Below are positions 11,704 to 37,085 of a stretch of 64,000 nucleotides of DNA, piece after piece. The notes beneath the pieces are model-generated. The model saw only the letters and a list, made by a program, of their open reading frames with translations, had not been told where the DNA came from and did not search any database. The position numbers and the translations under genes are program-made. The stretch's first letter is position 1. Each line of letters begins with the position of its first letter. Source of the stretch: Gonatopus flavifemur. Its lineage: Eukaryota > Arthropoda > Insecta > Hymenoptera > Dryinidae. The stretch covers positions 62,001-126,000 of the forward strand of contig JAFFJZ010000014.1 of the NCBI GenBank assembly GCA_018340375.1, given 5' to 3'.

Positions 11704-11781
11704 TATAATATATGGGACCTGATAAATAAAAACTAATCTATATATGGAGTCAATGGATGATTCATAATATATGTATGTATA

Positions 11782-13633: not shown

Positions 13634-16072
13634 TATATATGATATGCATATACGCATATATACATATACGACTGACTGAGAATATTTTTTTTCCTAATAA
13701 AATAAATATCATCATTGATACAAATAAATGCTGCGATTTATATTGAAAAACTGGAACTAACTCTCCAACAATTTTGAGTTTAGGTTTTAGGGAATTATGT
13801 TTTGATTTTCGGAGATTTCGTCGAAAGGTTTGCAGCAAAGTTTTCCCCAGAGTTGGTGACACTGATTCTGGTTCCAATGAACAGATTCATATCGGACACA
13901 GGTTGAAGCGGTTCTCGAGGGTGCTGAATCCATATCTGACGTCAGAAAACGAATTCGAGATGACGGATTCGGTATGCGAGAGTGAAGTTAGTGTTTTCTG
14001 CATTTGTTGTCGAATTCATATTGAACATGGGTTCTAGGGGTTTCCGAGGCTGCCGAATTTGAATCCAGAGTCAAAAAACTAATCCCAGATGGCGGAACCA
14101 ACGTGGTGGAGGTGGATTCAATCATCCTTGCATTCCCCTGGTGAAAACGAAAGTGAGGAGGAAGAGTAAACGGAGTGTATGTCAAAGGGTAACCAAAACG
14201 TTGATGAAAAGTATACGGAGCTTGAGTGGGAGGGATACAAAGAGTATGTGAAGTGGCAGTTGAAATGAAGGGAGCGTATACAATTCATGAGACCTAGATA
14301 AAAAAATTGCACCCTATAGTAAGAATCGAACCAGTAACTCTCACCATGGCAGACGAGGGCTCTGTTCACTGAGCCATGAATCGTGGTTGGTATCAACTGC
14401 TCAAAAATATTATTTGGATTCGGGTAAGTACGAATAGTACACGCTTCATAAACTCACTATTACTTCATATGAAGCCCGTGTGGGAGGGGATCGAGAGCTC
14501 ATGTAGCGTATATGGAACGTACGATTTCATCACTTCACAGCGAGCGGGCATCACACGCTTCAGGGAGAGGGAATTGAAACACTTTTCGCTTTGTATGTGC
14601 TTCCTTGGCGCTTCGTGTGAACACTCAATTTTCACCAGGGTCGTGGACAAATCCATTTGAAATATGGGTTCAGTTGGTCTTTAGGGTGGGCTGAATCAAA
14701 ATCTGATAGCTGATATTCAAAAAACATCAGAATTCCGATCTTCCCGTGTAAGCTCCTTTGCATACAGAGACTTCGGAAGCTGGTTAACGTTATGACAACT
14801 ACACACTAGTGAGAATCTAGGAGTGTAGGAAGTAGTTATCGACACAAATGACACGTGAAAATGTTCTAATTCATCCTTCAATCACGCCCAGATGACTTCC
14901 CGTTACGTTGACGGTAGTTCTCCAGCAATATTCAGAATCAAGTTTGGAAAAATATTATTCAGTGGGGGACCAAGGTCAAAGGGATTCAATACCCATATTC
15001 GTTGTATTCGTATTCATGATGAAAAAGCAACCAACTTGATATATAAACAAACAACTTTGTGACTTTTTCATGGTTCTTCTCTTCAAAAATTTCTATTTTC
15101 AATCCTTTCATGACTTTTGAGAGCCCATTTCGTTCCGTGTGAGATTCGAAACACCTCCACCCTGCGCATTTCTTATATCTTATCATCAGGACATTGTCAC
15201 ACACTTATGTTCATGCCAATGTATTTTACTGATCATGAACAAATGCGAGTAATCATTGTGGAAACTACATATATGAGAAATTCCCAAGTTGAAGGGTTTT
15301 CATATCTCACAAGCGATGGAATGAGCCCCCATAAGTCACAAACCGATTGGAAATAAAAATTTTCCAGGAAAAACTCATAAGGAATCTCGTGTGGTTGTTA
15401 TGGAGTTGTTTGTTTATATTTCGAGCTAGTTCTTCTCTCATCATGATTAAGAATATTAGCCCCAACGAATTCCTCCGGCCATGATTCTCTACTTGACAAT
15501 AATTTCTTCCATCTGATCCTAAATATTGCTAGAGAACTACCTCAATGTCTTCGGTACGCTCAAATGACTCTAGTACTATTCCACTACTATGGTGACCCCC
15601 CACGCCATTCCTACTTCTTCCCTCACTGATACGACTGACTAGGACACTTTTATGAATTACTAGGGGGACGGAGTGGGGATGACGTGGAGGGTCGCCAAAG
15701 TGGTGGAAGAACCAATTTATATGCATGGAATCGAAATATGATATTCCGTACGATGATCTATCAATTAACTTCACATTGGGGTATGAAACAACTTGTCAAT
15801 CAAATATATACATATTCCCTCAACCCGATTCATCGAATTCATTGAATTCATATCAAAGTAATGTCAAGAAGATTTCATGGGAGAAAGAGAAAGTTGGACA
15901 CTTCAAAAATTTGTGTATCTTATTTTATTTGATTACAAGTTGATACATTGAAGCACATCACATTGCAATACATTACAAAATATGATTCAGGAATATTGAT
16001 GATTAGAATAATAATAATAATACTGATGATAATAATAATGATGGTAATGAAGCCTCAATGATATATATTTTG

Positions 16073-16103: not shown

Positions 16104-16538
16104 AGGGTGGCTCATTTTAATCTGTCACTTAGAATATCTCGGAAACGAATAGATTCAGAAGAAAATGTTCCGGGAAAAAAATGTGAGAATCTGAGGGGGA
16201 CATCCGATGGTGAACTTGGCTTTGACCTCAGATCTCACTTTCAAGGTCATTCTGAGGTCAACTCATGTTTTTGAAATGGAATCCCCAATGCTTTACTACC
16301 GGTTTAGAATCTCCGCTAAAAACTAAGGAACTTTTGTCTCAAACGTCTTTTCGAAATCCCCATAGATGGCGCTCTAATTGATGAGAAAATGAGAATTCTC
16401 AAACCCTCGGATTGTATTCTGTCTAAGATAATGCTCAGCTCTTGAGTGTTTCTCATCTCCCAGAAATTGCCGCCGGCATCAGCGTTATCCAATGTGCACC
16501 ACGAGGAAGTTGCGCGATCGGACTTTACACATCATTGT

Positions 16539-16554
16539 GGTCCTGAAAAGGGCC
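16539..16554 (-). promoter_or_regulatory. Histone-mRNA-like 3' stem-loop after the copy A transposase
   Basis: The minus strand reads GGCCCTTTTCAGGACC, matching the consensus GGYYYUUHUHARRRCC at every position (one C-A mispair in the stem). It lies 36 nt downstream of the transposase stop, in sense orientation, and is followed by the conserved flank ACAATGATGTGTAAAGTCCG. The position and sequence fit histone-type 3'-end processing; function is inferred. Confidence 0.5.
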
Positions 16555-16590: not shown

Positions 16591-17666
16591 TTAGGCATTC
16601 AAAAGATGTTCAAAATGAGCGCCGTTGTGCCTTTGACAAAGCGCAATTATTTCATGAAAGTTTTCTACAGTTGCTTGCAACGTAGCGGGTGTTATCGCTG
16701 TGCATGTTCTTCTCATTCGATCTTCCATGTCATCGCGTGTTGTTGGATGTTCACGGAATACAACATTTTTTATGTAACCCCACAAGGAAAAATCAGGTGA
16801 CGTCAGATCTGGCGACCTAGGTGGCCATCGCACAGGTCCTCCATGGCCAATCCACCTTCTGGGAAACTTCTCGTCCAGAAATTTCCGAACAATTCGCATG
16901 TGATGAGGAGGTGCTCCACCCTGTTGGAACCACATCCTTGATCTCACGTCAAGACTTACGTCTTCCATAAGAGCAGGGAGTTCGATATGCAAAAAACGAA
17001 GATACTCCTCGCCAGTCAGGTTTCCTTCCGAAAAATACGGCCCTATGATCCTGGAATCTACAATTTCGCACGAAACGTTCACACTGCAACGGTGTTGATG
17101 ATTAATTGTACGGACCCAGTAAGGATCCTGAGCACTCCAATAATGGCAATTGTGCCTATTGAGAATTCCAACATTGTGAAATATTGCCTCATCAGAGAAC
17201 ATAACGTGATGAGGCAGAGAGTAGGATCTTCTTCAATTCTCCGTTGGGCCCACGTGCAGAAGTTCAATTTTGTTATGAAATCCTCAGCTGTGAGAGATTG
17301 CACCAAAGTGATATTGTAAGGATGATAATCCAACGATTTCCAGATACGCTGAGCTGTGGATCGAGGAATCCCGGTCATTTCCTCAATATCCCGAAGACTG
17401 ATATGGGGATTAATATGAATTAATACCAGCACAGCCAGCGATCTCACATCAGGATGATTGTCATCCGCATAAACTTTCTTGTTCCCCTGTTCTTTGAGGA
17501 GACCTTGACGAGCACTTTGTTCAAGGAATCGGAGCGTAATGCGATTTGGACACCTCCGATCCGGAAAACGACGTTGAAACGTTCTCATAGCTTCAACATA
17601 ATTTCCCCGCGCTTCACCAAGACACAACAAAACGTCAACAATATCGTTTGGCGCGTAATCAGACAT
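16591..17666 (-). pseudogene. DD41D transposase (copy A), catalytic Asp lost
   Basis: The protein begins MSDYAPNDIVDVLL and has the paired helix-turn-helix region (GIPRSTAQRIWKSL), then the catalytic core. The first Asp is kept (MFSDEAIF). The second is changed: the usual QQDGAPPH reads QQGGAPPH. The third is in LTSPDFSLWG, 41 residues after the second position. A frameshift near 17205 separates the two halves. The C-terminus ends GAHFEHLLNA. It would cut and paste the element at TA, but this copy cannot be active. Confidence 0.85.
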
Positions 17667-18533
17667 GATATTTAGAAATGTGTTTTCTCCAAATGATACC
17701 AGAAAACTGAGCAGTTTGGGAACGCTAAATTTCTGAGGTATTCACACGTGAATCAAAACAATAACAATTACCAAGAACAAAACCAAAACAAAACACAACC
17801 GACGGCAATTTCCGGGAGATGAGAAACACTCAAGAGTTGAGCATTATGTTGGACAGAATACAATCCAAGGGTTTGAGAATTCTCATTTTCTCATCAATTA
17901 GAGCGCCATCTATGGGGATTTCGAAGAAACGTTTGAGACAAAAGTTCCTTGGTTTTTAGCGTAGAATCTAAACCGGTAGTGAAAAATAGGGGATTCCATT
18001 TAAAAAACATGAGTTGACCTCAGAATGACCTTGGAAGTGGGATCTGAGGTCGAAGCCAAGTTCACCATCGGATGTCCCCCTCAGATTCTCAGATTTTTTT
18101 TCCCGGAACATTTTCTCCTGAATCTATTCGTTTTCGAGATATTCTAAGTGACAGATTAAAATGGGGTGTCCCATTTCAATCTGTCACTTAGAATATCTCG
18201 AAAACGAATAGATTCAGGACATCATGTTCCGGGAGAAAAACGTGAGAATTTGAGGGGGACATCCGATGGTGAACTTGACTTTGACCTCAGATCCCACTTT
18301 CAAGGTCATTCTGAGGTCAACTCATGTTTTTCAAATGGAATCCCCAATTCTTCACTACCGATTTAGATTCTCCGCTAAGAACTGAGGAACTTTTGTCTCA
18401 ACCGTTTTTTCGAAATCTCCATAGATGGCGCTGTAATTGATGAGAAAATGAGAATTCTCAAACCCTCGGATTGTATTCTGTCGGACATAATGCTCAACTC
18501 TTGAGTGTTTCTCATCTCCCGGAAATGTGTTCT

Positions 18534-18845
18534 CACATGCGAATTGTTCGGAAATTTCTGGACGAGAAGTTTCCCAGAAGGTGGATTGGCCATGGAGGAC
18601 CTGTGCGATGGCCACCTAGGTCGCCAGATCTGATGTCACCTGATTTTTCCTTGTGGGGTTACATACAAAATGTTGTATTCCGTGGACATCCAACAACACG
18701 CGATGACATGAAAGATCGAATGAGAAGAACATGCACAGCGATAACACCTGCTACGTTGCAAGCAACTGTAGAAAACTTTGATGAAATAATTGCGCTTTGT
18801 CCAAGGCAAAACGGCGCTCATTTTGAACATCTTTTGAATGCCTAA
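18534..18845 (+). pseudogene. DD41D transposase C-terminal third (copy B)
   Basis: The frame carries FPRRWIGHGGPVRWPPRSPD and DFSLWGYIQNVVF and ends at the family terminus GAHFEHLLNA. The N-terminal two thirds, including the first two catalytic residues, are deleted. It is very close in sequence to copy A, so both derive from one subfamily. Confidence 0.85.
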
Positions 18846-18881: not shown

Positions 18882-18897
18882 GACCCTTTTCGGGGCC
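18882..18897 (+). promoter_or_regulatory. Histone-mRNA-like 3' stem-loop after copy B
   Basis: GACCCTTTTCGGGGCC lies 36 nt after the stop, in sense orientation, at the same distance as in copy A. Two positions deviate from the consensus, in line with decay of a dead copy. The flank ACAATGATGTGTAAAGTCCG follows. Confidence 0.4.
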
Positions 18898-20447
18898 ACA
18901 ATGATGTGTAAAGTCCGATCGCGCAACCTCCTCGTGGTGCACTGAAAAAAGTTTGAGTAAGCTGCTCTCTCGGTGGGAAGTGCTGCTTCACCAAATACAT
19001 CGAGAGTTGCATGCCTTGGTTTTAGAATAGCTGTCCCTTCGGTTTGGGCAGGCAGCTCACCCATAATAGGACAGCAGCGCCACTAACATGTCGGTAATGG
19101 AGTTTGCCTTCACGTGAACAACTTCGTACGCAATCCATGGAAGTTGAGCTTCGTCAACATCTACTATCAGTAAATAAACATTTTCATGACTGTTTGAGTG
19201 AAAATGAGTGCTTCTATTGGAACTAGCAATGATTTTCATCTTCAAAATGATTTTCCAGGTGAGTATTCATGATTAGATTTATGTATCATTGTTTTTTTCT
19301 GTTTAGTTCAATGTTTTCTTTGTCCTAACCTACAAGTATGTTTGTCGTGGAGCATGAAGTTTTTTTACGGCGTTTTCTTCCTTCTCATATTAGTTTCTAT
19401 CTGTGCATGTTCTTCATAATTTTCTTTTGCTGACTTTTCCATAGATTTTTCTTGTACGAATAATGATCTTCATCTTCTGTTGAAAAGTACCACAGCTGGA
19501 AGATTGATTTTGGGGAAATATAAAGCGAAGAATGCAGTCGATCATGGGAGATTGAAAGAGATCATTATCTTGGATGAATCCAAAAATAATAATTTCCAGT
19601 GAGTAATAAATAACAGTATTATTCAATTTTGAATTGTTTCCCGAAGATTTATTCATGTTGAGTACCAAGCACTCTTTCATTTCATTCAATATTTAAATGC
19701 ACGCTCTATTGGCATAAAATTTATATGTGCACAATGGAATGTTTTACACATTAAAATCAAGTGATATTTGAGTTAACAAAATAACACTTGAAATAATTAA
19801 TTTATTCTTACACTTGTTTTCAGCATAAGTTAAGACGAATTTTCGAAAATCAGAAGCGACATTGAAGAATTATTCCCTACTGGAGAGATTGATTATTTTT
19901 ATACACCTTACTACAGAGACCCACAAAACAAAGCCGTGAGTGCAGCTGGCATACTATACAACCACTACAAGTTCTTGAGATGTGAATTTAGAGATGCAAA
20001 TATTTTCTTCCCTGATGGTCATGACGTTGGAAAAAGATTGTTAGAAGAATCAATTGAAGGTGAATGGTTAATTACAAATATTCGTATTTTGAACTTGATA
20101 TATACATTTTTATTGAATTCACAGGATATATTGATTCATAATTGGGGGTCAGTGCCGAATCAACGAAAAACCAAATCAACGAGAAAAAAATTTACTAGCA
20201 GTATGAAGTTGTCATCTTGTTGCAGTATGAAATGAAATTAGTCATAGATCATTGATGAAATCAAACAAAAATTCTTTATGTTAACCTATTCACTGCACCC
20301 GTTTATTACAGTAGACACGTAATTCATCATTCTAATGAAATTATTAATAATCTTCCTAATCGATCGGTACAATCAAACTGTTTCAAACGTCTGTAGAAAA
20401 CGAAAATCGGTTTGTTGTTATCATAAACATAACCGTACCATAATCAT

Positions 20448-23400
20448 CCTCCCCGTGGATGATTGCGGGTCTTCCAGGGGGATATTCATGATACCTGTCC
20501 TTGATATCCTTTTTATCCATCCCTGGTAGTATCTGCTTCCTTTACGTGGTGGGGAGGATAAGTATCTCAGAGTTGGATCTTTTTTTTTGAGTGGAATAAA
20601 CTACTCAAGAGAAAGAATAAAAACTGAGAAAAACGAAATCATCCTAATGCCAGAAACATCGGCAAAATCAAACGGAAGGAAAGCAAGGGGAAACTACCTT
20701 CCTTGACATGTTTCAATACTTCCCGAGGAAATGAAACCTTTTTCCTAACCTGGAATATTATGTAACAAAAACAAACAAACAAATTAATAAATACATGATG
20801 GCGCTCTCTCGAGTAAAATATTCCGGAGGTAAACTAGTCTCCCGTTCGGATCTCCGGGTGGAGGCTGCTCGAGGAAGCTTCATCAGCAAGGAACGAAAAC
20901 CGAAGAATAGGATAGGGAGAAGAAACAACATTCTTCGAGTCGGAGCGTGGAATGTTAGATCACTGAGGCAAGCGGGAAAATTAGAAAATTTGAAATTAGA
21001 AATGAATAGGTTGAATATAGACGTAATGGGGATTAGCGAAATGAGATGGCCACAAGAGGGCGATTTCTGGAGTGGGGATTATAGAATAATTCATACAGGA
21101 TCAAAGAACGGTCAAGCAGGTGTAGGAATTGTAATGCATAGAAGAGTAGGAAATAGAATAGAAAATTATTTGCAACATAATGAACGTGTGATGATGGTTA
21201 GAATCAGAAAAAAACCGGTAGACACAATCATAGTCCAAGTATACATGCCCACATCTGCATATTCGGAGGAAGATATTGAAAAAACGTACGAAGAAATAGA
21301 AGAAGTGATAGAATATGTGAAGGGAGAAGAGAATTTGATAGTGATGGGGGATTGGAATGCGGTAGTAGGACAAGGAAAAGAGGACAACATTATAGGAGAT
21401 TTCGCGTTAGGGAGGAGGAACGATAGAGGACAACGTTTAGTCGAATTTTGTGAAAATCATGAGATGGTTATCACAAACACTTTATTCGAAAATCATCCAA
21501 GAAGAATCTACACTTGGAAAATGCCAGGAGATACAGCAAGATACCAAATTGATTACATATTAGTGAAACAAAGATTCAGAAACCAAGTGAAAAACTGTAA
21601 AACTTATCCAGGTGCAGATATAGATAGTGATCATAATATGTTGATGATGAAATTTTCTCTGAAATTCAAATCTCTGAAGAAGAAAAGGAAAATGCAGAAA
21701 AGATGGAATTTGAAGAACCTCAAGCAAAAACAAACGCATGAGGCATTCGAGAAAATGTTGGATGAAAAATTGGGAGATCAAAAAGAGAAAGACTTGGGAA
21801 TAGAGAGGAGATGGACAAAGATGAAGGGGAATATAAGAGAATGTGCGGATAAGATTCTGAAGAATGATGGAGTAGAAGCTAAAAACCCATGGATAACGGG
21901 AGAAATTTTAGAATTGATAAATGAAAGAAGAAAATACAAGAATAATGATAGCCAAGAAGGCCAGCAACGATACAAATCATTGAGAAATAAAATAATAAGA
22001 GAATCAAGGAAAGCAAAAGAACAGTGGTTAGAAGAGAAATGTCAGGAAATAGAAATAAGATTGCATTTAGGAAAAATAGATGAAGCATATAGGATTATTA
22101 AAAGATTTTTCGGACAAATGAAATCTAGGAGCAATAGGATTAGAAATTCTCTAGGACGACAATTGATAAAAACGGAAGAGAAAATAGAACAGTGGATCAA
22201 TCATTTGGAAGACTTGTATAAAGGAAACGATGATATAGCGCTTTGAGAGAAGGAGGAGGATGTAGATGAGGAAGAATTGGGAGATTCGATATTGAGATCA
22301 GAATTCGACAAGGCTTTGAAAGAATTGAAAAATAATAAAGCGCCAGGCATAGATGGCATAAGTGCGGACCTTATAAAAGCCTCCAGTGAAGGAACTCGCG
22401 ACGCACTGTTTGAATTGATCAGAGATATGTACGAGAAAGGAGAAGTACCAGAAGATTTCCAAAAGAATAAAATTGTCGCTATCCCGAAAAAACAAGGGGC
22501 GGACAAATGCGAGAACTACAGAACGATCAGTTGAACTTCACATGCTTCGGAAATACTGACCAAAATTATATACAGGAGGATGGAAAATAAAATAGAGAGT
22601 AGATTGGCAGGGGATCAGTTTGGTTTTAGAAAAAATAGGGGAACGCGAGAAGCAATCTTAGCACTCAGGGCAGTAATAGAGAAAAGGATAGCGCTGAAGA
22701 AATCTGTGTACATAGGTTTTGTAGATATACAAAAAGCTTTCGATAATGTGGACTAGGAGAAGATGTTTGCGATCCTGAAGAAGGTGGGAATAAATTTTAA
22801 AGATAGAAGAATAATATACGAATTATATAAGAATCAAAGTGCAATAATAGACATAGAGGGTCAGGAAGGGGAAGCACAAATAAGAAGAGGGGTGAGACAA
22901 GGATGCTCATTATCGCCACTGATGTTCAATTTATATATAGAAGAAGCAATGAACGAAGTGAAGGAGGAAATTCAATCGAAATTACAGATTCAGGGAGAAA
23001 ATATAAGTATGTTGAGATTCGCGGATGACTCAGCTATATTGGCCACGAGTAGTACTGAGTTAGAAAATATTCTCAACACCATGAGAACAATATTATTGGA
23101 AAACTATTGTATGAATATAAATAAAGACAAAACAAAATTCATGATGTGTACAGCAGCGAAAACAGCTAGAAGAACGAGAATCAAAATAGATACCGAGACA
23201 ATTTAACAGGTGAAAGAATTCAAATATCTAGGAAGCATAATTACAGAGAACGGCAAAAGCGAAAGAGATATAAGAGCAAGAATAGCACAAGGGAAACAGG
23301 CTTTTTATCAAAAGAGACAGTTATTATGTTCAAAAAATATAAGCTTGGAAGTAAGGAAGAAATTCTTGAAAAGTTACGTTTGGAGCACAGCATTATATGG

Positions 23401-23801
23401 TTGCGAAACTTGGACAATGGGGAAAACTGATCAACGAAGACTTGAAGCTTTTGAAATGTGGTGTTATAGGAGGATGCTCAGGATAAAATGGATAGACAAA
23501 GTCAAAAATGAAGAAGTACTCGAGCAGATAAATGAAGGAAGAAATCTTTCGAAACACATCGTGAAAAGGAGAAGCAATCTTATAGGACACACATTATGGC
23601 ATGAGAGTTTATTGAAAACAATATTGGAAGGGAAAATGAATGGTAAAACTGGTAAAGGTAGACCTAGAGCAAGTTATATGAAGCAAATCGTACAAGACAA
23701 GGGATGTAGTAGATATGTAGAAATTAAACGTTTGGCGGATAATAGACAGGGGTGGAGGGTTTCATCAAACCAGTCGTAAGACTGATTACTTCATGATGAT
23801 G
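20448..23801 (+). mobile_element. Full-length RTE-like LINE, 3354 bp, with 11-bp target duplication
   Basis: The direct repeat ACCATAATCAT borders it at 20437-20447 and 23802-23812. The 3' end is TTACTTCATGATGATG, a short ATG-repeat tail; the second copy at 62661 ends in a longer run of the same triplet. One ORF encodes an apurinic endonuclease and reverse transcriptase with no separate gag-like ORF, an architecture like the RTE group. It is inserted in the 20144-23999 element. Confidence 0.9.
20795..23779 (+). pseudogene. LINE endonuclease-reverse transcriptase polyprotein
   Basis: The endonuclease domain (about residues 45-290) has GAWNVRSL, ISEMRW, GDWNAVVG, RYQIDYILV and DSDHNML. The reverse transcriptase follows with NNKAPGIDGI, GDQFGFRKN, DIQKAFDNVD, RQGCSLSPL and the catalytic FADDSA. 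The C-terminal ALYGCETWT block precedes the 3' tail. The frame is continuous with four nonsense codons (22244, 22532, about 22754, 23204) and no frameshift. Comparison with the second copy shows which residues became stops, for example the Trp of NVDW and the Glu of ETIEQV. It would nick target DNA and prime cDNA synthesis there. Confidence 0.92.
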
Positions 23802-26687: not shown

Positions 26688-26989
26688 TATATGTATGTGG
26701 GGCATTCTTCGTGAAATCGGCCACCCCCCCCCCCCTGCACATCTCAATTTTGAAGATAGAGATCTCGGAGATCAATCAAAATTCTCGTTGGAGTGTCTAC
26801 TTTTCATTACCGTATGGTGTTTTTTGGACATGGCGGCCATTTTGCCAATATGGCGGCTGAAACGAAGGGAAGACGTGTTGAGAATAATCAAAACCAGTCC
26901 TAGAAATATGATACGTGAGTGTTGGATAGTTCTGCGGACTGGGACATGTAACTCGGGCCTTCTGGATTAATTGCATGCGGTTGGAATAC

Positions 26990-27610
26990 TGAAATTGCAA
27001 ATGGTGGATCCAATATGGCGGCCGGAAATTCGAAATTGCTTCGAATTTTCTGAAACATGGGGAAAAGGGGTTTTTCGGGTCGCTGATGACGAATCCGAAC
27101 TCAGACTTCCGGAATTACTAGTGGCGGATTCAATATGGCGGTCGGAAAAATTATAACTCTCTTGGATTTTTGCGAACATTGTCATACTGAGGTTTTTGGG
27201 GTCGCGGAACAAGAATCCAAACCCAGATTTCCGGAATTGCAAATGACGGAATTGGAAATTGAAATAGCGTTCCGAATTTCCTGAAACATTGGGGAAGGGT
27301 TTTTTTTGGGTCGCTGATGACGAATTCAATCTCAGATTTCCGGAATTACGAATAGCGGATCCAATATGGCGCTCGGAAGAATTATAAATCGCTCAAATTT
27401 GCGGAAACATTGACATACTGAAGTTTTTGGGGTCGCTGATCAAGAATCCGGACTCGAATTCCCGGAATGGCGAATGGCTAATCCAATATGACGGTCGGAA
27501 GAATCATCAATCTCTTGAATTTGTGGAAACAATGTCATACTGAGATTTTTGGAGTCGCTGATAGACATTTGAATCCGGATTCTCGGAATTATGAATGGAA
27601 AATTCGATAT
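26990..27610. repeat. Tandem repeats of about 120 bp in the left arm
   Basis: Five to six units each contain a variant of CCAATATGGCGG followed by CGGAA and later GGTTTTTGGGGTCGC. The motif starts near 27019, 27133, 27361, 27482 and 27603, with a decayed unit near 27250. Confidence 0.75.
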
Positions 27611-27994
27611 GACGGTCTGGATATGAGGAATCATCCGTCCTCCGACGTGAATCTTTGTTCCGAGAAAGTTCTGGTCGTTCATTATGAACTTGAGGTCAGA
27701 TTCCGGAAACTAGAACGAACGCCCCACGTTCAATGATCCGCAAGCACATTTGATATGATGGAAACGAATATTATATCAATTTCAGGAATTATTTGGGGTC
27801 TGGTCACACAAATTCACAAACTTCCAATAGACTCCCTCCCAATGAAACTCCTTGCAAATCTCCCTCGAATCAAACCATGAATACTGCTGGTTCTTGACTT
27901 GCGGATTCGTGTATTCAGGCTCCCAGCTGTCAGCATTAGCATAACCCAATGTGCACCACGAGGAGGTTGCACGACCAGACTTTGCACATCGAGT

Positions 27995-28010
27995 GGCCCT
28001 GAAAAGGGCC
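27995..28010 (-). promoter_or_regulatory. Perfect histone-mRNA-like 3' stem-loop after a transposase gene
   Basis: The minus strand reads GGCCCTTTTCAGGGCC, matching GGYYYUUHUHARRRCC at all 16 positions with a fully paired 6-bp stem and TTTC loop. It sits 54 nt downstream of the transposase stop (28065) in sense orientation. The flank (GATGTGCAAAGTC, then CAACCTCCTCGTGGTGCACA) is shared with the DD41D elements. Confidence 0.55.
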
Positions 28011-28064: not shown

Positions 28065-29975
28065 TCATGGTTGTCCATTTGGCCACCATACTCTGTTTTG
28101 TTCATCGTTAGAGTACCTTTTGAGGAGCACTTCATTATCGGATCCTATCAAAAACCCATGGTTTTTCAGAATCTTAGGTACAGGTTGGGCATTCTCGAAT
28201 CGTTTGTTGAGTTTCCGTCTCATCTTTTCGTGAAATACTTCATCATAGTACATGATGCTTATGGTTTCAAAATGACTCTTTGCCCAGCTGTAGAGTTTTT
28301 GGGGCGTCAATATAGCATTTTGAGGTTTGGCAGTCAGACTCGCTCTGTATGCTCCTCTTTTGGAAGTAGCGCCGATCCCGTCATAAGCACCTTCGCCATG
28401 AGCAGTTGCACTGTGATGCCATTCAGCGTCAACATTGGAATCTCCTTTGTGATGAACTAAATTCGCGATTTGAAATTCATTTTTGAAGTGCTGCTTTGCT
28501 CCGTCACTGGTATGAATAATCTCATTCACTTTTTCCACATTGCATTGAATTTCAGGAATTAACAATGTCTGGATAGCATAAACAGCGGAAGTGTGGTGTT
28601 TTAAACTTTCAGAGAGGAATAAATAACTCTTGTGCTTATTATCGCGCCCTTCCTCATGATAATAAATGGCAGAGAACACAGTGCATTGGTCGTTATTGGA
28701 ATGAAATGCTTGTGAGGCATCCTGGCAAACATATGCGTAGTTCTCAGAAAAATCAAACGTAACCAATACTCCGCCATCGCAAAGATTGTATTTTCGTTCT
28801 CGGATAAAAAGACTCTGTTGCTGAGAGATAGATGGATGAGATTTGAGGATTGTCAGTTTTTCACACAATTCAAGTATGAAATCATCAATTTTCATGACTT
28901 CTGTTTGTAGAGTCGAACGATCCGTTGCTGTCCAAACTGAATATTGAATATCTGTGATGAATGAATTCTCCAGTAGATTATGTAATTTCTCCGAGAACTG
29001 CGAAACTCCTGGACAGTCATTCCATGCGTCTAGATAACAATCAGCACGAGGTCTCTCAGAAACAATTTCATTGAGGCAGTCTTTGTAATTAGTTAGTGGC
29101 TTTTGTGTATTCAACGTCAGCTTTTGAATATCAATTGCATCCAACATCAATTTCGGATTTTGATGTATTGTGCAAACACAAACTGAATGTGTTCCACAAG
29201 CCCCAGGGAGTATGCAATTTTTTGGTCTCAGTTTAGCAAACGCGCTGAAGCAGATAATATGTTCTGGGTGAGACTGTTTGTATACGGTATAACGTTCTTT
29301 CAAACCCATCAGTAAGAGACGTTTCTGTTTCAGCGTTCGCTCTCAATCAATTTTCACAGGAACGACATCTTCCGATGCAGGCATTATCCTGCTATTCATG
29401 TCACTCGTATAAAATCCATGTACTGTTTCTAAAGTTGTTTGAGAGAGTTTTCTCGCCTCCCTTGCAATACTATCGGGTAAAATGCCAGCTTTCATCTTCA
29501 ATTCCTTAGATTTGTTGGCCAAATATCGCGTTGTAACGAATTCTTGGGCGATTTTCCTCGCACTCCGAGATGATGGGGCGATAGTTAAAATTTGTAATTT
29601 CAATGGATTGTTGGGTTCCAAGGTTGAAAATTTCTCCTTGAGCTTATCCAGCACTCCTTCCAGTTCAATTCCTCTGTTCGTGCGTGTATCATTGAAACCT
29701 TCGTGTGTCTCATCCTCCAATTGAACATTCATTCCCATAGAACTCTCAATACTACAAATATTCCCACCGCTATCATTTGATTCATGAACCACATCGTCAT
29801 TTTGTAATTTGTCCGATGAACCCTTCTTTATACATGCAGCACAAATCCTCGAATTCGCGCATAAGTCAGGAAATTGCTGTAACATAACCTCCGATATTTT
29901 TCGTAAATTTCTACCAACGTGCCCGGCAGTTTTGAATGGATTTGCACATCGGTCCGTTCGAAGAATTCGCGGCAT
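28065..29975 (-). pseudogene. DDE-like transposase of the ENY/SDG/DGIG family, one stop codon
   Basis: The N-terminus has a Cys/His-type region (CANPF, CANSRICAACIKKG). A block at FYTSDMNSRIMPA leads to the core. Conserved core motifs are TFDFSENYAYVCQDASQAFH, HTSDGAKQHFKN and HGEGAYDGIGATSKRG, which could supply the acidic catalytic residues of an RNase H fold. The frame is 636 codons long and interrupted only by TGA at 29343-29345. I recognise the protein as a recurring repeat family in arthropods and cnidarians but cannot assign its superfamily name. A histone-like stem-loop follows its stop. Confidence 0.65.
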
Positions 29976-30239
29976 CGTGTATTAGATGATCAGATAAATC
30001 AGATGAAAATATGCGAACTCCTAGTACGATTTCATAAGTTAAAACACAAGAACTTTGAGGTTCAAACGTCGCGAACATTCATCAAGTGACAATGTAAAAC
30101 GATGAATAACAGGAGACGAGGAAAACAACTGACGTTGCAATGAAACCACATGGAATTAGGTGCGGACATTACTGAACAATACACTGTCAGTTGATAAGAA
30201 TCGATTTCACGTATTTATTCGTTCATTTTCAGCTGATTT

Positions 30240-31047
30240 ATTCGACATTCTAATATATGAAGCCGCGAATTCTTCGAAAAAGCCAATGATTTATCCACTC
30301 AAAACAGCCGCACACAATGGCAGAAATTCGCGAAAGATATCGGAGGTTAAGTTACAAGGATTTCCTGACTTATACGCGAATTCCAGAATCTAAGCTGCAT
30401 GTATGGAAGAAGGTTCATCGTACAAATTACGAGATGACAAGGTGGTTGATGAATTGAATGATAGAGGTGCAAATATTGAAAGTATTGAGAGGTCGATTGT
30501 CCAGGAGGTTCGCAGTTCTCGGAGAAATTACATGATCTACTGGAGGATCCATTGATCACGGGTATTCAATATTCAGTTTGGACGGCAACGGATCGTTCAA
30601 CTCTACAAACAGTAATGATGAGAATTGATAATTTTATACAACAATTGTGCAATAGACTGACAATACTCAAACCTCATTCATTTATGTCTGAGCGACAGAA
30701 TCTTTTCATCCAGGAACGGAAACACAATCTTCGCGATGGCGGAGCACCGATTACGTTTGATTTTTTGAGAACTCAGTATATGTTAACCACGATGCCTCAA
30801 AAGCATTTGAATTTCGATACCGAACAATGCACCGTGTTTCCTGCTATTCATTATCACAAGGACGCGATGTTGAGCACAAGAGTTACGTATTCTGATCAGA
30901 AAGTCTAAAACACAACACCTTTGCTGTTTATGCTACCCAGACTTTGTTAATTTCTGAAATCCAACGGAATGTGAGAAGGATGAATAGGATTATCCGTACC
31001 AGAGACGGAGCGAAGCAGCACTTCAAAAATAAATTCCAGGATGAATA
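30240..31047 (+). pseudogene. Deleted, inverted copy of the same transposase
   Basis: The start region (GATTTATTCG, CCGCGAATTCTTCG) and the block NSRKISEVKLQGFPDLYANS match the N-terminus of the minus-strand gene. The sequence then jumps across a deletion of about 290 residues to DCPG and the TGIQYSVWTATDRSTLQT block. It ends in decayed core sequence around 31040. The ATG is lost and several stops and frameshifts are present. The head-to-head arrangement makes the whole element an imperfect palindrome. Confidence 0.75.
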
Positions 31048-31359
31048 TGATCAGGCCCCAAATAATTCTTGAAATCAATATAATATTTGATCCCATCATA
31101 TTAAATGTGCTTGCGGATCATTGAACGTGTTGCGTTCGTTCTGGTTTCCGGAATCTGACCTCAGGTTCATAATGAACGACCAGAAATTCCTCGGAACAAA
31201 GATTCACGTCAGAGGACGGATGATTCCTCATATCCAGACCGTCATATCGAATCTTCCATTCATAATTCCGAGAATCCGGATTCGAATGTCTATCAGCGAC
31301 CCCAAAAATCTCAGTATGACGTTGTTTCCACAAATTCAAGAGATTGATAATTGTTCTGA

Positions 31360-32130
31360 CCACCATATTGGATGACCCATTCGCTCTTCCGGAAATTCGA
31401 GTCCGGATTCTTGATCAGCAACCTCAAAAACTTCAGTATGCCAATGTTCCCGCGAATTTGAGCGATTTATAATTCTTCCGAGCGCCATATCGGATCCGCT
31501 AGTCGTAATTCCGAAAATCTGAGTTTGGATTCGTCATCAGCGACCCAAAAAACCCCCTTCTCGATGTTTCAGAGAATTCGAAGCGATATTTTAATTTCCG
31601 TCCGCCATATTGGATTCGCCATCCGCAATTCTGGAAATCTGGGTTCGGATTCTTGTTCCGCGACCCCAAAAACCTCAGTATGACAATGTTTGCACAAATC
31701 CAAGAGATTTTTAATTTTTCCGACCGCCATATTGGATCCGCTATTCGTAATCCCGAGAATCTGAGTTTGAATTCGTCGTCAGCGACCCAAACAAACCCTT
31801 CCCCAATGTTTCAGAGAATTCGGAACAGTATTTTAATTTCCGGCCGCCATATTGGATTCGCCATTTGCAATCTCAGAAATCTGGGTTTGGATTCTTGTTC
31901 CGTGACCCCAAAAACCTCAGTATGACAATGTTCGCAAAAATCCAAAAGATTTATGATTTCTCCGACCGCCATATTGAATCTGCCATTTGTAATCCCGGAA
32001 ATCTTAGTTCGGATTTGTCATCAGCGACCCGAAAAACCCCCTTTCTCCATGTTCCGAAATATTCGAAGCAATTTTGAATTTCCGGCCGCCATATTGGATC
32101 CGCCATTTGCAATTCCAGTATTTCAACCGC
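31360..32130. repeat. Tandem repeats of about 120 bp in the right arm
   Basis: Seven units read CCGCCATATTGGAT or a variant at about 31365, 31483, 31603, 31724, 31846, 31966 and 32086, a period of 118-122 bp. They are the inverted counterparts of the left-arm repeats, with at least one extra unit on this side. Confidence 0.78.
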
Positions 32131-32415
32131 ATGCAATCAATCCGGAAGACTCGAATTACATGCCTCAATCCCCAGAACTATCCAACACCCACGTATCATA
32201 CTTCTAGGACTGGTTTTGATTATTCTCAACACGTTTCCCCTTCGTTTCAGCCGCCATATTTGCGAAATGGCCGCCATGTCCGGAAAATACCATACGGCAA
32301 TGGAAAGTAGATACTCCAACGAGAATTTTGATTGATCTCCGAGATCTCTATCTCCAAAATTGAGATGTGCAAGGGGGGGGCTGATTTAACAAAAGATGCC
32401 CCATATATATATATA

Positions 32416-34446
32416 CAGGGTGGGGCATTTAAAGTGTCGCGGGCGTTTCTTCCAAAAATAAAGTGAGATACGAGAAAATTTTTCGAACAAAAGTTGTAGG
32501 GTACCGAGGGGGACATCCGATGGTGGCCTTGGCTTTGACCTCAAATCTCATCTTCAAGGGCATTCTGAGAATAACTCTTGTTTTTTAGATGGCATCTCAT
32601 ATTTTTTACTGCAGATTTGAATTCTAGGTCAAAAACCAAGAAACTTTTGTCTGAACCATTTTTCTGAAATCCGCAAAAATGGCGCTCTAATCGATATTGT
32701 TCCATTTTGAATCTGACATTCGAATAACTCGAGAACGAAGGGTCTTGCAAAAAAATGTTTCGTACAAAAGTTGTCAATACACAACACATCTCAATCGTCT
32801 ACATTACCACCATCCAGAGCTCACGCGATGTGAACAAACGACGGGGTTCAGTGAAAATTCACGATTTTGAAAGTCAGTTTGTCAGTTACATTTGATTATT
32901 ACTTGGTTTATGACAAATTGAAAATCATGGATATCCGATACACGGTTTCTGAAAAGATCGATATGATCTACATCTACGGTGAAGTGCATAAGAACCCCAG
33001 ACAAGCATATGACTTGTATGCAGAACGATTCCCTGAAAGAACAACGCCATCCATTAGGTATTTTCAACGCATTACAAAATTATTCTCAGAAACGGGAAGT
33101 GTTACAAGGGAAAAACGACATCGAATGAGAACTGTTAGCGGAGAAAATGCGGAAGTTAATGTACTAGCTGCAGTAGCCAATAATACACACGTGAGCTCTC
33201 GTGAAATTGAACTCCATTCGGGAATTTCTCGAAGAAGTGTTCTTCGAATACTGGAACGTCACAAATTCCATCCGTATCGCATTTGTTTGCATCAAGACCT
33301 TCACGGTGATGATTTCGAAAATCGTGTACAGTTTTGTCGATGGGGTCTAGCGCAAATGCACAATAACAACTTCATCAACATATTATTTTCTGATAAGTCG
33401 ACGTTCACCAATCATGGTCAAGTGAATCGACATAATATGCATTACTGGGCGACAGGAAATCCAAGATGGTTACGTCAAGTAGAGCATCAAAGACAATGGG
33501 CTGTGAATGTTTGGTGTGGTATTTTCCGATCTCAAGTAATTGGACCGTACTTCATTGCGGATACGCTAAATGGAGAGAAGTACAGCGTTTCTTAGATCAA
33601 GTATTTCCAACATTACTTGAAGACATACCTATTCAGGAACGATTGAATATGTGGTATCAACACGATGGTTGTCCATCCCATTATGCAGTCACAGCTCGAG
33701 AAATATTGGACAGAGATTATCCTGGACAATGGATAGGACGTCGTGGACCAGTTCATTGGCCTGCCCGTTCTCCGGATCTTACTTCTCCAGATTTTTTTTT
33801 ATGGGGATACATGAAAGATACAGTTTATCAACAAGCACCGACTACACCTGAGAATATGCGTCAACGAATCATCAATGCATGCGCGAGCATCAATGAAGAT
33901 ATTTTAGCACGAGTTCAGCAATCTTTTGTAAAACGTTTTGAAATGTGTATTGAAGTCGAAGGCCATCATTTTGAGCATCTACTGCATTAAAATTATCCAA
34001 GTGATGTAGACGATTGAAAAGTGTTGTGTTTTGTCTGTTATACCCCATCACCTCCGTTTCAGTTCAAGGGGTCCCCCTTGGAATCAGACAACTTTTGTCC
34101 GAAACATTCTCCTCCAAGACCCTTCGTTTTCGAGTTATTCTAATGTCAGATTCAGTATGGAACAATATCGATTAGAGCGCCATCTTTGCGGATTTCAGGA
34201 AAATGGTTCAGACAAAAGTTTCTTGGTTTTTGACCTAGAATCCAAATCTGCAGTAAAAAATATGAGATGCTATTCAAAAAACAAGAGTTGACCTCAGAAT
34301 GCCCTTGAAGATGAGATTTCAGGTCAAAGCCAAGGCCACCATCGGATGTTCCCCTCGATACCCTACAATTTTTGTCCAAAAAATTTTCTCGTATCTCATT
34401 TTATTTCTGGAAAAAACGCCCGCGACACTTTAAATGCCCCACCCTG
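32416..34446 (+). mobile_element. DD41D element C, 2031 bp
   Basis: The ends CAGGGTGGGGCATTTAAAG and its inverse are bordered by TA (32414-32415 and 34447-34448). The inverted arms are about 380 bp. The arms keep the AGGGCATTCTGAG and TTTGACCTCA region homologous to the other DD41D arms. Transposase is on the plus strand. No histone-like stem-loop is seen after its stop, unlike the other members. Confidence 0.88.
32927..33990 (+). pseudogene. DD41D transposase (element C), one frameshift
   Basis: The start MDIRYTVSEKIDMIYIYGEV is followed by the helix-turn-helix GISRRSVLRILERHKFHPYR. Catalytic positions are FSDKSTF (Asp kept, next residue Lys instead of Glu), YQHDGCPSH and LTSPDFFLWGY, with 41 residues between the last two Asp. 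A single missing base near 33582 shifts the frame between GEKY and QRFLDQVFP; otherwise both halves are open to GHHFEHLLH. Full length is about 354 residues. Confidence 0.9.
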
Positions 34447-34501
34447 TATATATATGTGAAGGAGTGAAGTTGTTCAGTCAAACGGACTTCCTTGGAGTAA
34501 A

Positions 34502-34537: not shown

Positions 34538-35479
34538 GATGACAGTGTAGTACGTCCCGTTCTACACCAGATGTCACAAGCTTTTAGAGTTTGAGGGAAA
34601 AAGAACACACCCTCCTGGCGTGATCTCGCCACTTTCATGCTACATCCTCGCCAGTTTCTTGCCTCTATGTAATCCTTTCGAGACATGTTGGAATGGCCCA
34701 GATTCGGTGGGCACACCAAGTATATACAGGGTAACCCATTTTAATTTTTATATCGGAATAATTCGAAAACGAGGAGTTTCGGAGGAAAATATTTGGAACA
34801 AAAGTTGTGAGATTCCGAGGGGGACATCTGATGGGGACCTTGACTTTGGCCTCGGATCTCAACTTCAAGGTCACTCAGAGGTCAACTTTTGTTTCTTGGA
34901 TCGAACCCCCTATTCTTGATTGCAGATTCAGATTTGACGTTGAAAAACAAGAAACTTTTGTCCCAATCATTTTCCCGAATTCCGCACAGATAGCGCTCTA
35001 ATCGATAAAAAATGAGTTTTATGAAACACTTGTATTGCTTTCTGTGTGAAACGACATTTACCTCCCCAGTGTTTTTTTTCAGCTTCTGAGGATGACTGTC
35101 GCCATTGGAGTTACCCAATGTGCACCACGAGGAGGTTGAGTGATCGGATCTTGCACATCTTTGTGGCCTGAAAATTTGATGGAAGCCCATAAGTAAAAAT
35201 CCGAAGTGGTAAGATTCGTAGACCTAGCTGGGATTTTCCATCGACCAATATTGACAAGTATGTCTGTTCGTAGTACTGTTACTGTGAATTGTTGCCGAAC
35301 ACAAGTACACAAAACAATACTTGTGTTTATCATGAACAAGGAAGTTCATACAAGAGCATTGTTTGCAAACATAAGTGAAACGGAATGTTTAATATCCTTC
35401 ATTTATTCACAAATTCTTTTCGATATACGATTCGAACTTGAAGAAGATCTTTGATCAGTGTTGTGAAGGTCTCAATACC

Positions 35480-36529
35480 ATGGATTATCCTCGGAGTGAA
35501 ATACTTGATATTCTTCTGATACTAGGAGAATTTCGACGTCATTACGCTGCAGCATCAAGATTGTATGGAGAGAGGTATCCAAATAGACGCCACCCTTCAC
35601 TTCAGACGATACGCTCAATAGGAAGACGAGTCAGAAGAATGAATACCCCACGAGTCAGAGGACGTTATGATGGAAATCGTATGGATACACGCTCAGTAGC
35701 CGTTTCAGGAATGGTGCACCTGAATCCTCACGTTAGTACCAGAGAAATCCAGCACCAATTAGGTATCCCAAGATCAACGGCACACCGCATACTGAGATCT
35801 GGTGAATATCATCCTCACCACATGACATTGGTGCGAGCATTAAGTGAAGATGATCTTAGACGTAGGGTTGAATTCGGTCAATGGGCCTCGGAGCAACCGC
35901 CTGGTTCCTTCGATTACGTGATGTTTAGTGATGAGGCAACATTTCGCAGTAACGGTGTTATGAGAAGACATAATTGTCCCTATTGGTCAATTGGAAATCC
36001 CAGATGGCATCGAAAAGTTGACAATCAACATCGCTGGACTCTGAACGTGTGGTGTGGGATTTTGAATGGCCAGATCATTGGTCCTTATTTCTTCCAACAT
36101 CCTGTTAGGAAGGAAAATGATCTGCAATTGATTCGGGACAAATTACCAAGGATGTTGGAAGATGTTGATCTCCACACACGGAACAGGATGTGGCTTCAAC
36201 ATGATGGGGCACCACCTCATAACGCTGCAATTGTCAGGGATTTCTTGAACACATCTTACCCACACAGATGGATTGGTCGCGGTGGATACATCGCCTGGCC
36301 AGCTAGGTCTCCGGATCTCACCCCTCTGGATTTTTCCTTATGGGGTTTCATCAAAGATGTAGTTTATGAAAGACCACCAACGACCAGAGATGACATGAAA
36401 CGCCGAATACGAACTGTCTGCCGAACAATTCCACGTCATGTGCTTTTGTCGTTAGAACCACATTTTTAGAGACGAATGAGGTTATGCCAACAGGTCAACG
36501 GTGCAAATATCGAACATTTGATACGATGA
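35480..36529 (+). pseudogene. DD41D transposase (element D), single premature stop
   Basis: It starts MDYPRSEILDILLILGEFRR and has the helix-turn-helix LGIPRSTAHRILRSG. The catalytic residues are all present: MFSDEATF, LQHDGAPPH and LTPLDFSLWGF, with 41 residues between the last two. TAG at 36467-36469 removes only the last 20 residues, which continue in frame to GANIEHLIR. Length is about 349 residues. The ATG at 35480 aligns with the starts of the related copies; an in-frame ATG 42 bases upstream is less likely. Confidence 0.92.
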
Positions 36530-36593: not shown

Positions 36594-36609
36594 GGCCCTT
36601 TCCAGGGCC
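36594..36609 (+). promoter_or_regulatory. Histone-mRNA-like 3' stem-loop after the element D transposase
   Basis: GGCCCTTTCCAGGGCC has a perfect 6-bp stem and one loop change from the consensus. It lies 64 nt after the original stop, in sense, preceded by CAGACAATC and followed by AGATGTGCAAAATCCG and CAACCTCCTCGTGGCGCAC. Confidence 0.5.
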
Positions 36610-37085
36610 TAAAAGATGTGCAAAATCCGATCGCTCAACCTCCTCGTGGCGCACATTGGGTAACTGTAATGGCGACGGTAATCCTCAGGAGCTGAAAAAA
36701 ACACACTGGAGAGTTAAATGTCGTTTCACACAGAAAGCAATACGAGTGTTTCATAAAACTCATTTCTCATCGATTAGAGCGCCATCTGTGCGGAATTCGG
36801 AAAAATGATTCAGACAAAAGTTCCTTGTTTTTCAACGTCAAATCTGAATCTGCAGTCAAAAATAGGGGATTTTATCTAGGAAACAAAAGTTGACCTCTGA
36901 ATGATCTTGAAGTTGAGATCCGGAGCCAAAGTCGAGGTCACCATCAGATGTCCCCCTCGGAATCTCACAACTTTTGTTCGAAACATTTTCCTCCAAAACC
37001 CCTCGTTTTTGAGTTATTCCGATATAAAAATTAAAATAGGACACCCTGTATATATGTATATATATTCTTGGGATGGGGCGTAACT

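Follow-up and report, generated by a model that had tools for sequence, protein, structure and literature searches.

A histone-type hairpin joined to a predicted HDV-like ribozyme as a probable 3'-end cassette of DNA transposons in Gonatopus flavifemur

Introduction

In histone mRNAs, cleavage takes place some 5 nt past a hairpin. The 3' ends of the replication-dependent ones (RF00032; PMC2781718) resemble the transposon gene ends described here in the 16-nt hairpin, which is identical to that of most histone genes of this genome, in its similar distance past the stop codon and in the AC that mostly follows it, but the transposons have no histone-type downstream element at the histone spacing and carry a predicted ribozyme in place of the U7 snRNP target.

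Self-cleaving ribozymes of the HDV-like kind that lack P4 have been described, with the catalytic C standing first in J4/2 (PMC10879173), and P4 may also be absent in the ribozymes of R2 elements (PMC3774820). The drz-agam-1, or minimal P4-less, type (RF01787, RF02682, RF00094) shares with the transposon module a P1 of 7 bp with G1.U, the joining strand AAARU, a P2 placed on P3 (ACC/GGU), the L3 sequence UCCUCGU and a CUAA J4/2. The module differs from this type in scoring below the gathering thresholds, in two single-base bulges in P2 and in its position, which is the 3' end of a gene in a DNA transposon and not the 5' end of a retrotransposon. HDV-like ribozymes are likewise found in the mobile elements R2 and L1Tc/ingi (PMC3774820, PMC4035085), where they are described as releasing the 5' ends of retrotransposon RNA, whereas the present one follows a histone hairpin at a class II element's 3' end; those of the L1Tc/ingi type have also been reported from 3' UTRs in Leishmania (PMC3774820, PMC4035085). 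The theta ribozymes of phages are minimal HDV-like ribozymes as well, and their cut marks the 3' end of the RNA upstream (PMC10879173), as is predicted here, but that RNA is a phage tRNA, whereas the present case concerns an animal genome and an mRNA that carries a histone hairpin.

Some of the carrier elements are of the DD41D (VS) kind of Tc1/mariner transposons; one of them combines the DD41D spacing with a DUF4817 helix-turn-helix. A term search of one paper on this family (PMC8472432) gave no occurrence of 'hairpin', 'stem-loop' or 'ribozyme'. Among the titles and abstract openings listed by searches of the open-licence literature, none mentioned a ribozyme attached to a histone hairpin or a DNA transposon with an HDV-like ribozyme. 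The parts are thus of known kinds, while their combination and placement are new as far as the literature searches reach. In this paper we describe a transposon-borne 3'-end cassette, composed of a histone hairpin and a predicted HDV-like ribozyme, which probably gives the transposase mRNA a histone-type end without poly(A) and without the U7 snRNP.

Materials and methods

The DNA analysed, called the window below, is a stretch of 64,000 nt of Gonatopus flavifemur (assembly GCA_018340375.1, contig JAFFJZ010000014.1, positions 62,001-126,000 of the forward strand). Histone-type hairpins were scanned for with the consensus GGYYYUUHUHARRRCC (6-bp stem, 4-nt loop). The genome search covered 636 Mb, and DNA comparisons were confined to the genome of this one species. 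The sample of copies consists of 99 loci fetched from 100 of the 651 places that carry the exact hairpin GGCCCTTTTCAGGGCC, by which it was selected, with the window's own excluded. String rules sorted the 99 copies into an E1 type (28), an E3 type (24), an 'agt' type (34) and two ENY types (8 and 5).

Results and discussion

Hairpins past the transposase genes

The window contains four histone-type hairpins, all in sense orientation past the stop codons of transposase genes, and the original prediction had placed and oriented each of them correctly. The hairpin of the ENY-type element (27995-28010, minus strand) lies 54 nt past the stop codon of the ORF 28065-29309 and scores 20.9 bits with Rfam Histone3; it was said to match the consensus at all 16 positions, and the scan of the window returned it as a perfect match. 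In element E1 (16539-16554, minus strand) the hairpin stands 36 nt past the stop, with one stem mismatch and a Histone3 score of 15.7 bits. The same distance of 36 nt is found in E2 (18882-18897, plus strand), a decayed copy with two mismatches to the consensus. In E3 (36594-36609, plus strand) the hairpin has a UUCC loop and follows, after 64 nt, the TGA at 36527-36529; the Rfam search of that stretch of the window gave no Histone3 match to it at E of 10 or below. All four distances were as predicted when measured from the ORF coordinates.

Two perfect matches to the consensus were found in the window (at 27995 and 16539, both on the minus strand), whereas 200 shuffles averaged 0.02 and never gave two. 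With at most one mismatch there were five, compared to a shuffle mean of 0.585, and again none of the 200 shuffles reached this number. The excess disappears when two or three mismatches are allowed, the observed numbers being reached by 29 and 176 of the 200 shuffles, respectively. Among the four hairpins the full 6-bp stem folds only at 27995 and 36594 (-9.9 kcal/mol each); stem pairs are broken at 16539 (-2.7 kcal/mol) and 18882 (-4.3 kcal/mol), which sit in decayed elements.

An additional perfect hairpin, CGTCCTTTTCAGGACG, with a UUUC loop, is located at 12623-12638 on the minus strand, shortly past a TAA, in a foldback element (11775-13640) with arms of 759 nt. No ribozyme match was found downstream of it. 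The 10-mer CCTTTTCAGG occurs three times in the window, in this hairpin and in two of the cassettes.

The module behind the hairpin

Directly 3' of each of the four hairpins there is a conserved module, which was not part of the original prediction. It begins 4-5 nt past the hairpin in the window. Judging by sequence, the hairpin appears to make up the first half of a unit of about 90 nt, called the cassette below, and the second half of this unit is predicted to be a minimal (P4-less) HDV-like self-cleaving ribozyme, with the cut expected before the first base of the module, G1.

In the ENY element, a spacer of 4 nt (ACTC; 27991-27994, minus strand) separates the hairpin from the predicted cleavage site, and the candidate ribozyme occupies 27925-27990 on the minus strand (G1 at 27990). 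Its architecture is a nested double pseudoknot of P1, P2 and P3 with P2 directly on P3. P1 (1-7/37-43) has 7 bp with G1.U43 as the closing pair and is followed by the joining strand AAARU; P2 (13-23/56-64) is formed by bases 13-15, 17-19 and 21-23 pairing with 56-64; P3 (24-26/34-36; ACC/GGU) adjoins P2 with zero bases between. L3 (27-33) reads UCCUCGU, with GG available for P1.1, J4/2 is C52-U-A-A55, and P4 is missing.

The candidate ribozyme of E1 (16468-16533, minus strand) starts 5 nt past its hairpin and has CUGA in J4/2, and that of E2 (18903-18942, plus strand) is cut short by a truncation within P1'. The E3 copy (36615-36680, plus strand) reads GUAA in J4/2, the catalytic C having been lost. 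The 5' inverted repeat of E3 contains a second, outward-facing copy (35094-35159, minus strand), with CCAA in J4/2 and only half a hairpin before it. The four window copies, those of ENY and E1 and the two of E3, align without gaps, and P2 has nine of nine pairs in ENY, E1 and the first E3 copy and seven of nine in the second. Covariation among these four sequences by themselves is weak, its score being reached by 43 of 500 shuffles.

The full ribozyme descriptor, which was set after the ENY copy had been seen and was the third version after two others, matched the 64 kb once with a strict J4/2 (27990, minus strand) and twice with a relaxed one (27990 and 16533, both minus). Its chance rate with at least nine P2 pairs was 0.013 (strict) and 0.017 (relaxed) per shuffled window in 300 shuffles. 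When the four window copies were used to build a covariance model, it recovered them and the truncated E2 copy; three further matches in the window, of at most 12.9 bits, are probably due to chance.

Two other foldings were considered. Placing the catalytic C in UAAUGGC was rejected because P2 then fails to reach P3. A simple hairpin (19-22/37-40) competing with P1 in the ENY copy is not conserved; it has 4, 3, 2 and 1 of its four pairs in the four window copies.

Comparison with Rfam

At gathering scores the whole window gave zero Rfam matches. In the permissive search, HDV-F-prausnitzii matched at 27990 (minus strand, 24.6 bits), 16533 (minus, 22.3 bits) and 36615 (plus, 16.9 bits), and HDV_ribozyme at 35161 (minus, 23.4 bits), all below the gathering scores. 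The HDV-like matches lie on the strand of the hairpin and start at G1 or 2 nt earlier.

Twelve loci, chosen by hand from the 99 as being near the majority sequences, were searched with 4227 families. Histone3 and an HDV-like family were found at the module in all 12, the latter again with its start at G1 or 2 nt earlier, with E-values of 0.07-5.5 for the HDV-like families and 0.00012-1.6 for Histone3. The scores stayed below gathering: the best were 29.2 of 44 for RF02682, 27.4 of 50 for RF00094 and 28.9 of 34 for Histone3 (RF00032), and RF01787 gave 12.8 of 37 in the search of the ENY copy. In the same 12-locus search, the inverted-repeat stretches matched microRNA families with better E-values than those of the HDV-like matches; these numerous microRNA matches were dismissed as artefacts.

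Comparison with the histone genes of the host

Thirty histone C-terminal ends were read in 24 loci, some of them overlapping, and 27 have a hairpin 15-36 nt past the stop codon. The three ends without a hairpin (two H3 and one H2A) look like replacement types. The original prediction had suggested a comparison with the histone 3' ends of this species, and in 14 of the 21 distinct ends the hairpin is exactly the GGCCCTTTTCAGGGCC of the transposons. Among the other seven, the last place of the loop is T in five and A in one, and one has GGTCCTTTTCAGGACC. The latter belongs to one host H2A gene (L117, L124) and alters both sides of the histone stem. The histone hairpins are mostly preceded by AAC and followed by ACCAAA, with CAUC before the hairpin in one H2B. 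On the 5' side of the transposon hairpin, most of the ENY copies of the 'actc' type have CAAC, as several histone genes do, and the DD41D types have AAUC.

These flanks bear on the possibility that the ribozyme is active and the hairpin is merely an insulator, shielding against misfolding or 3' exonucleases without any part for SLBP; the RNA may even be destroyed, with the ribozyme acting as a brake on the transposase. A minimal SLBP site has been described as the stem-loop with two adenines on its 5' side and one on its 3' side (PMC10388802), and the AAUC of the DD41D copies, compared to the AAC of most histone genes, favours such an explanation, as does a report that switches based on drz-Agam-2-1, an HDV-like ribozyme, controlled reporter expression from a 3' UTR (PMC4513843). 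We nevertheless regard it as unlikely, since all 16 letters of the hairpin, including the loop, are those of most host histone hairpins, which is more than shielding needs, and since the CAAC of most 'actc' copies is shared with histone genes.

Downstream of the hairpin the two kinds of ends diverge. A motif CG[AT]([AG])GG, which is probably the U7 target, starts 15-18 nt past the hairpin in 16 of the 21 distinct histone ends and was not found in the other five, and none of the 99 transposon copies has it at 8-25 nt past the hairpin. Conversely, CCTCCTCG was absent from the 160 nt past the stop codon in all 30 histone ends. The original proposal that the transposons had captured a histone 3' end holds for the hairpin, identical to that of the host, and is not supported for the 3' end as a whole, in which the core of a predicted HDV-like ribozyme is found instead of the downstream motif.

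The same observations make it very unlikely that a complete histone 3' end was captured, with the module being a diverged U7 target and cleavage being directed by U7 as in histones. Besides the hairpin, the AC with which the 3' flank begins in most types matches the host histone genes, and the module contains CGTGG, which resembles the CG[AT]GG downstream of histone hairpins. This CGTGG, where present (82 of the 99 copies), starts 34-39 nt past the hairpin as opposed to the 15-18 nt of histones, and it is a part of L3 and P3' of the ribozyme, with P1, P2 and P3 pairing around it.

Transposons carrying the cassette

The ENY-type transposase is encoded on the minus strand by a C-terminal ORF (28065-29309), the relatives of which have about 636 aa, and probably by an N-terminal part at 29343-29975, as suggested by the order of the frames and the length of the relatives. 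The nearest named relatives are from ants and a wasp. No Pfam family was found for the window protein, and among 18 members of the family there were two single weak matches. The predicted structure contains a putative RNase H-like core resembling retroviral integrases and Mos1; no Foldseek match was obtained at E 0.001. A long inverted repeat occupies 26727-27806 on the 3' side, with its partner within 31048-32380. Within 28471-31038, parts of the element's own gene recur in inverted and decayed form; this second copy stops short of the hairpin and the ribozyme.

E1 has a DD41D-type transposase in two minus-strand ORFs, C-terminal (16591-17202) and N-terminal (17079-17666), the frame being broken. 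Its terminal inverted repeat (16113-16476 on the 3' side, partner 17799-18163) starts at the end of the ribozyme. In E2 a C-terminal remnant of the transposase is left (18471-18845, plus strand). The DD41D transposase of E3 (35438-36529, plus strand) has a single in-frame premature stop (36467-36469) and the residues D165, D256 and a nearly invariant D298, with the 41 residues between the last two that define DD41D; it matches PF16087 with 23.8 bits at a cut-off of 22.6. The terminal inverted repeat of E3 (36606-37054 on the 3' side, partner 34721-35168) contains the ribozyme.

From the gene to the end of the element, the order in the window is stop codon, hairpin, ribozyme and inverted repeat. 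In ENY and E1 the cassette is present at one end only, in sense and after the gene. E3-type elements carry outward-facing ribozymes in both inverted repeats (35094-35159 and 36615-36680 in the window; 2-70 in locus L048), and at least nine inverted pairs of cores about 1.5-1.7 kb apart were counted by hand among the first 100 of the 996 exact cores in the genome.

Another transposon in the window, with DUF4817 (32407-34455, plus strand), is a negative case, as it has neither hairpin nor ribozyme. An AATAAA is absent after the stop codons of E1, E2, ENY and E3, which is uninformative since it is also missing from this control element and from one of two mariners. Retrotransposon-like frames, with motifs judged by eye, are located at 54-1576, 20795-23779, 59909-62730 and 63032-63511.

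When 1.8 kb of the ENY element was compared with E1, E2 and E3, the sole nucleotide similarity at E 0.01 was a stretch of 71-80 nt covering the hairpin and the ribozyme, with an identity of 82-85% in the main match and 79% for the second E3 copy. The ENY element and the hairpin-less element at 32407-34455 showed no nucleotide similarity at E 0.01. The majority sequences, compared over 516 nt without gaps by position and therefore blurred far from the hairpin, gave 87-96 nt at 86-89% between ENY and DD41D types, a stretch that starts 4-10 nt ahead of the hairpin and runs roughly to the end of P2'. Among the DD41D types the similarity extends further (81% over 340 nt between E1 and E3). By nucleotide similarity, the cassette of about 90 nt is thus all that is common to the DD41D Tc1/mariner elements and the unrelated ENY elements. 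The original prediction had argued that the presence of one module in two families speaks against chance. The two families are indeed unrelated, but they do not represent two independent events, because one cassette is common to both.

Copies across the genome

A genome-wide search for the module, also suggested with the original prediction, found the exact hairpin GGCCCTTTTCAGGGCC 651 times and the exact ribozyme core CCTCCTCGTGGTGCACATT 996 times; the reversed control gave 0 in each case. The counts that follow are from related copies and are not independent. An L3 core with at least 9 of 11 letters lies within 60 nt of the hairpin in 98 of the 99 copies, and in all of the first 60 the module follows in sense 3-5 nt from the hairpin, in some cases damaged. 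The spacer between the hairpin and G1 was 5 nt in 78 copies, 4 nt in 16, 3 nt in one and 2 nt in one, and was unread in three. In copies with a readable C-terminal motif, the hairpin follows the stop codon at a distance of 36 nt in 19 of 20 E1-type copies; for the E3 type this distance was 64 nt in 11 of 13.

Compared with the three transposases, the first 60 copies had their best protein match to E1 (19), E3 (13) or ENY (4), and 24 matched none. Thirteen of these 24 were inspected and found to be non-coding (longest open frame 110 aa) and mostly 91-95% alike to L012, so the cassette persists without a gene too. The abundant non-coding 'agt' type (34 of the 99 copies; L012, L015, L041 and similar) has kept the hairpin and the ribozyme, and the copy L015 seems to retain a remnant of a DD41D C-terminus.

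On contig C1, 18 of 34 exact cores were preceded by an exact hairpin among the matches listed, as counted by hand; the hairpins of the other 16 may be mutated, or these cores may belong to outward-facing ribozymes of the opposite repeat, like those seen in E3 and L048. The ENY copies L046 and L047, which lie some 48 kb apart on the small contig C7, are alike through the cassette and the near flank, possibly as a result of segmental duplication. Searches with patterns, transposase proteins and alignments found no related locus in a collection of viral contigs, and none was found in a further collection of genome contigs.

The majority sequences of all five groups have P1 with 7/7, P2 with 9/9 and P3 with 3/3 pairs and a C at position 52, and their J4/2 is CUAA or, in E1, CUGA. 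C52 is kept in 90 of the 99 copies and lost in nine, and the missing C of the E3 copy in the window is therefore a sign of decay. Over 83 distinct rows, 96.0% of the cells of P1, 94.8% of those of P2 and 93.2% of those of P3 are paired, against at most 68.9, 63.5 and 65.5%, respectively, in six controls with the partner strand slid. P1.1, between L3 and the bases past P1', has 2/2 pairs in four groups and 1/2 in 'agt'; its cells are paired in 83.0% as drawn and in 95.2% with the partner slid by +1, because the 34 'agt' copies must use the next base. Two pairs of P2 changed on both sides with pairing kept in the same 83 rows, namely 14-63 (CG in 62, UA in 13) and 21-58 (GC in 50, UG in 21), and the pair 18-60 changed on one side with pairing kept (CG in 52, UG in 22).

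Changes of this two-sided kind weigh against the idea that the cassette acts as DNA, as a subterminal repeat bound by the transposase and spread by recombination, its RNA features being incidental. The copy in each inverted repeat of E3-type elements and the retention of the cassette by gene-less copies would suit such a repeat. Its single, sense position after the gene in the ENY and E1 elements of the window would not, and one binding site common to two unrelated transposases is unlikely, which leaves the idea with a slender chance. That the cassette is a fossil, active in an ancestor and now passively copied, is barely credible, for although 60 of the 99 copies lack at least one of the features looked for (P1, P2, P3, J4/2 and the CC in L3, with P1.1 excluded) and the E3 copy in the window is without its catalytic C, the other 39 have them all (P1.1 not asked) and the five group majorities are intact.

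Proposed mechanism and its significance

A cassette that probably works in RNA, with the hairpin and the ribozyme acting together, may be used as follows. Pol II would transcribe the transposase gene, the hairpin and the ribozyme together, and the ribozyme would fold and cut the transcript before G1, just past the hairpin. HDV-like cuts leave a cyclic phosphate. The mature mRNA is expected to end with the hairpin and ACAAU, ACAAA, ACAGU or ACUC, which is near the ACCAA following the hairpin in most histone genes. Host SLBP might bind this predicted end and, in place of poly(A), provide for the protection, export and translation of the tail-less RNA; expression that depends on SLBP would probably be best in S phase. 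In ENY and E1 the predicted cut precedes the 3' inverted repeat, and in E3 it falls just within the repeat. With the cut at or ahead of the repeat, the mRNA would lack it, which may limit double-stranded RNA.

In its fullest form, the proposal is that DNA transposons have assembled a histone-type 3' end that is self-sufficient, in which the SLBP hairpin of the host is combined with their own HDV-like ribozyme replacing the U7 snRNP and its nuclease, that the transposase mRNAs are tail-less, tuned to S phase and stripped of the inverted repeat, and that the cassette jumps between unrelated families. Taken as a whole this is put forward tentatively, as a little more doubtful than probable. The idea is directly testable because the genome has hundreds of copies.

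A cut-and-paste element might benefit in two ways: from expression in S phase, when moving from replicating DNA pays, and from ridding the mRNA of inverted repeats, which would otherwise feed RNA silencing. If the proposal is true, the transposase transcripts would form a second class of mRNA with a histone-type end, made by an RNA enzyme within the transcript, and HDV-like ribozymes would gain a role in the formation of mRNA 3' ends in animals and in class II transposons.
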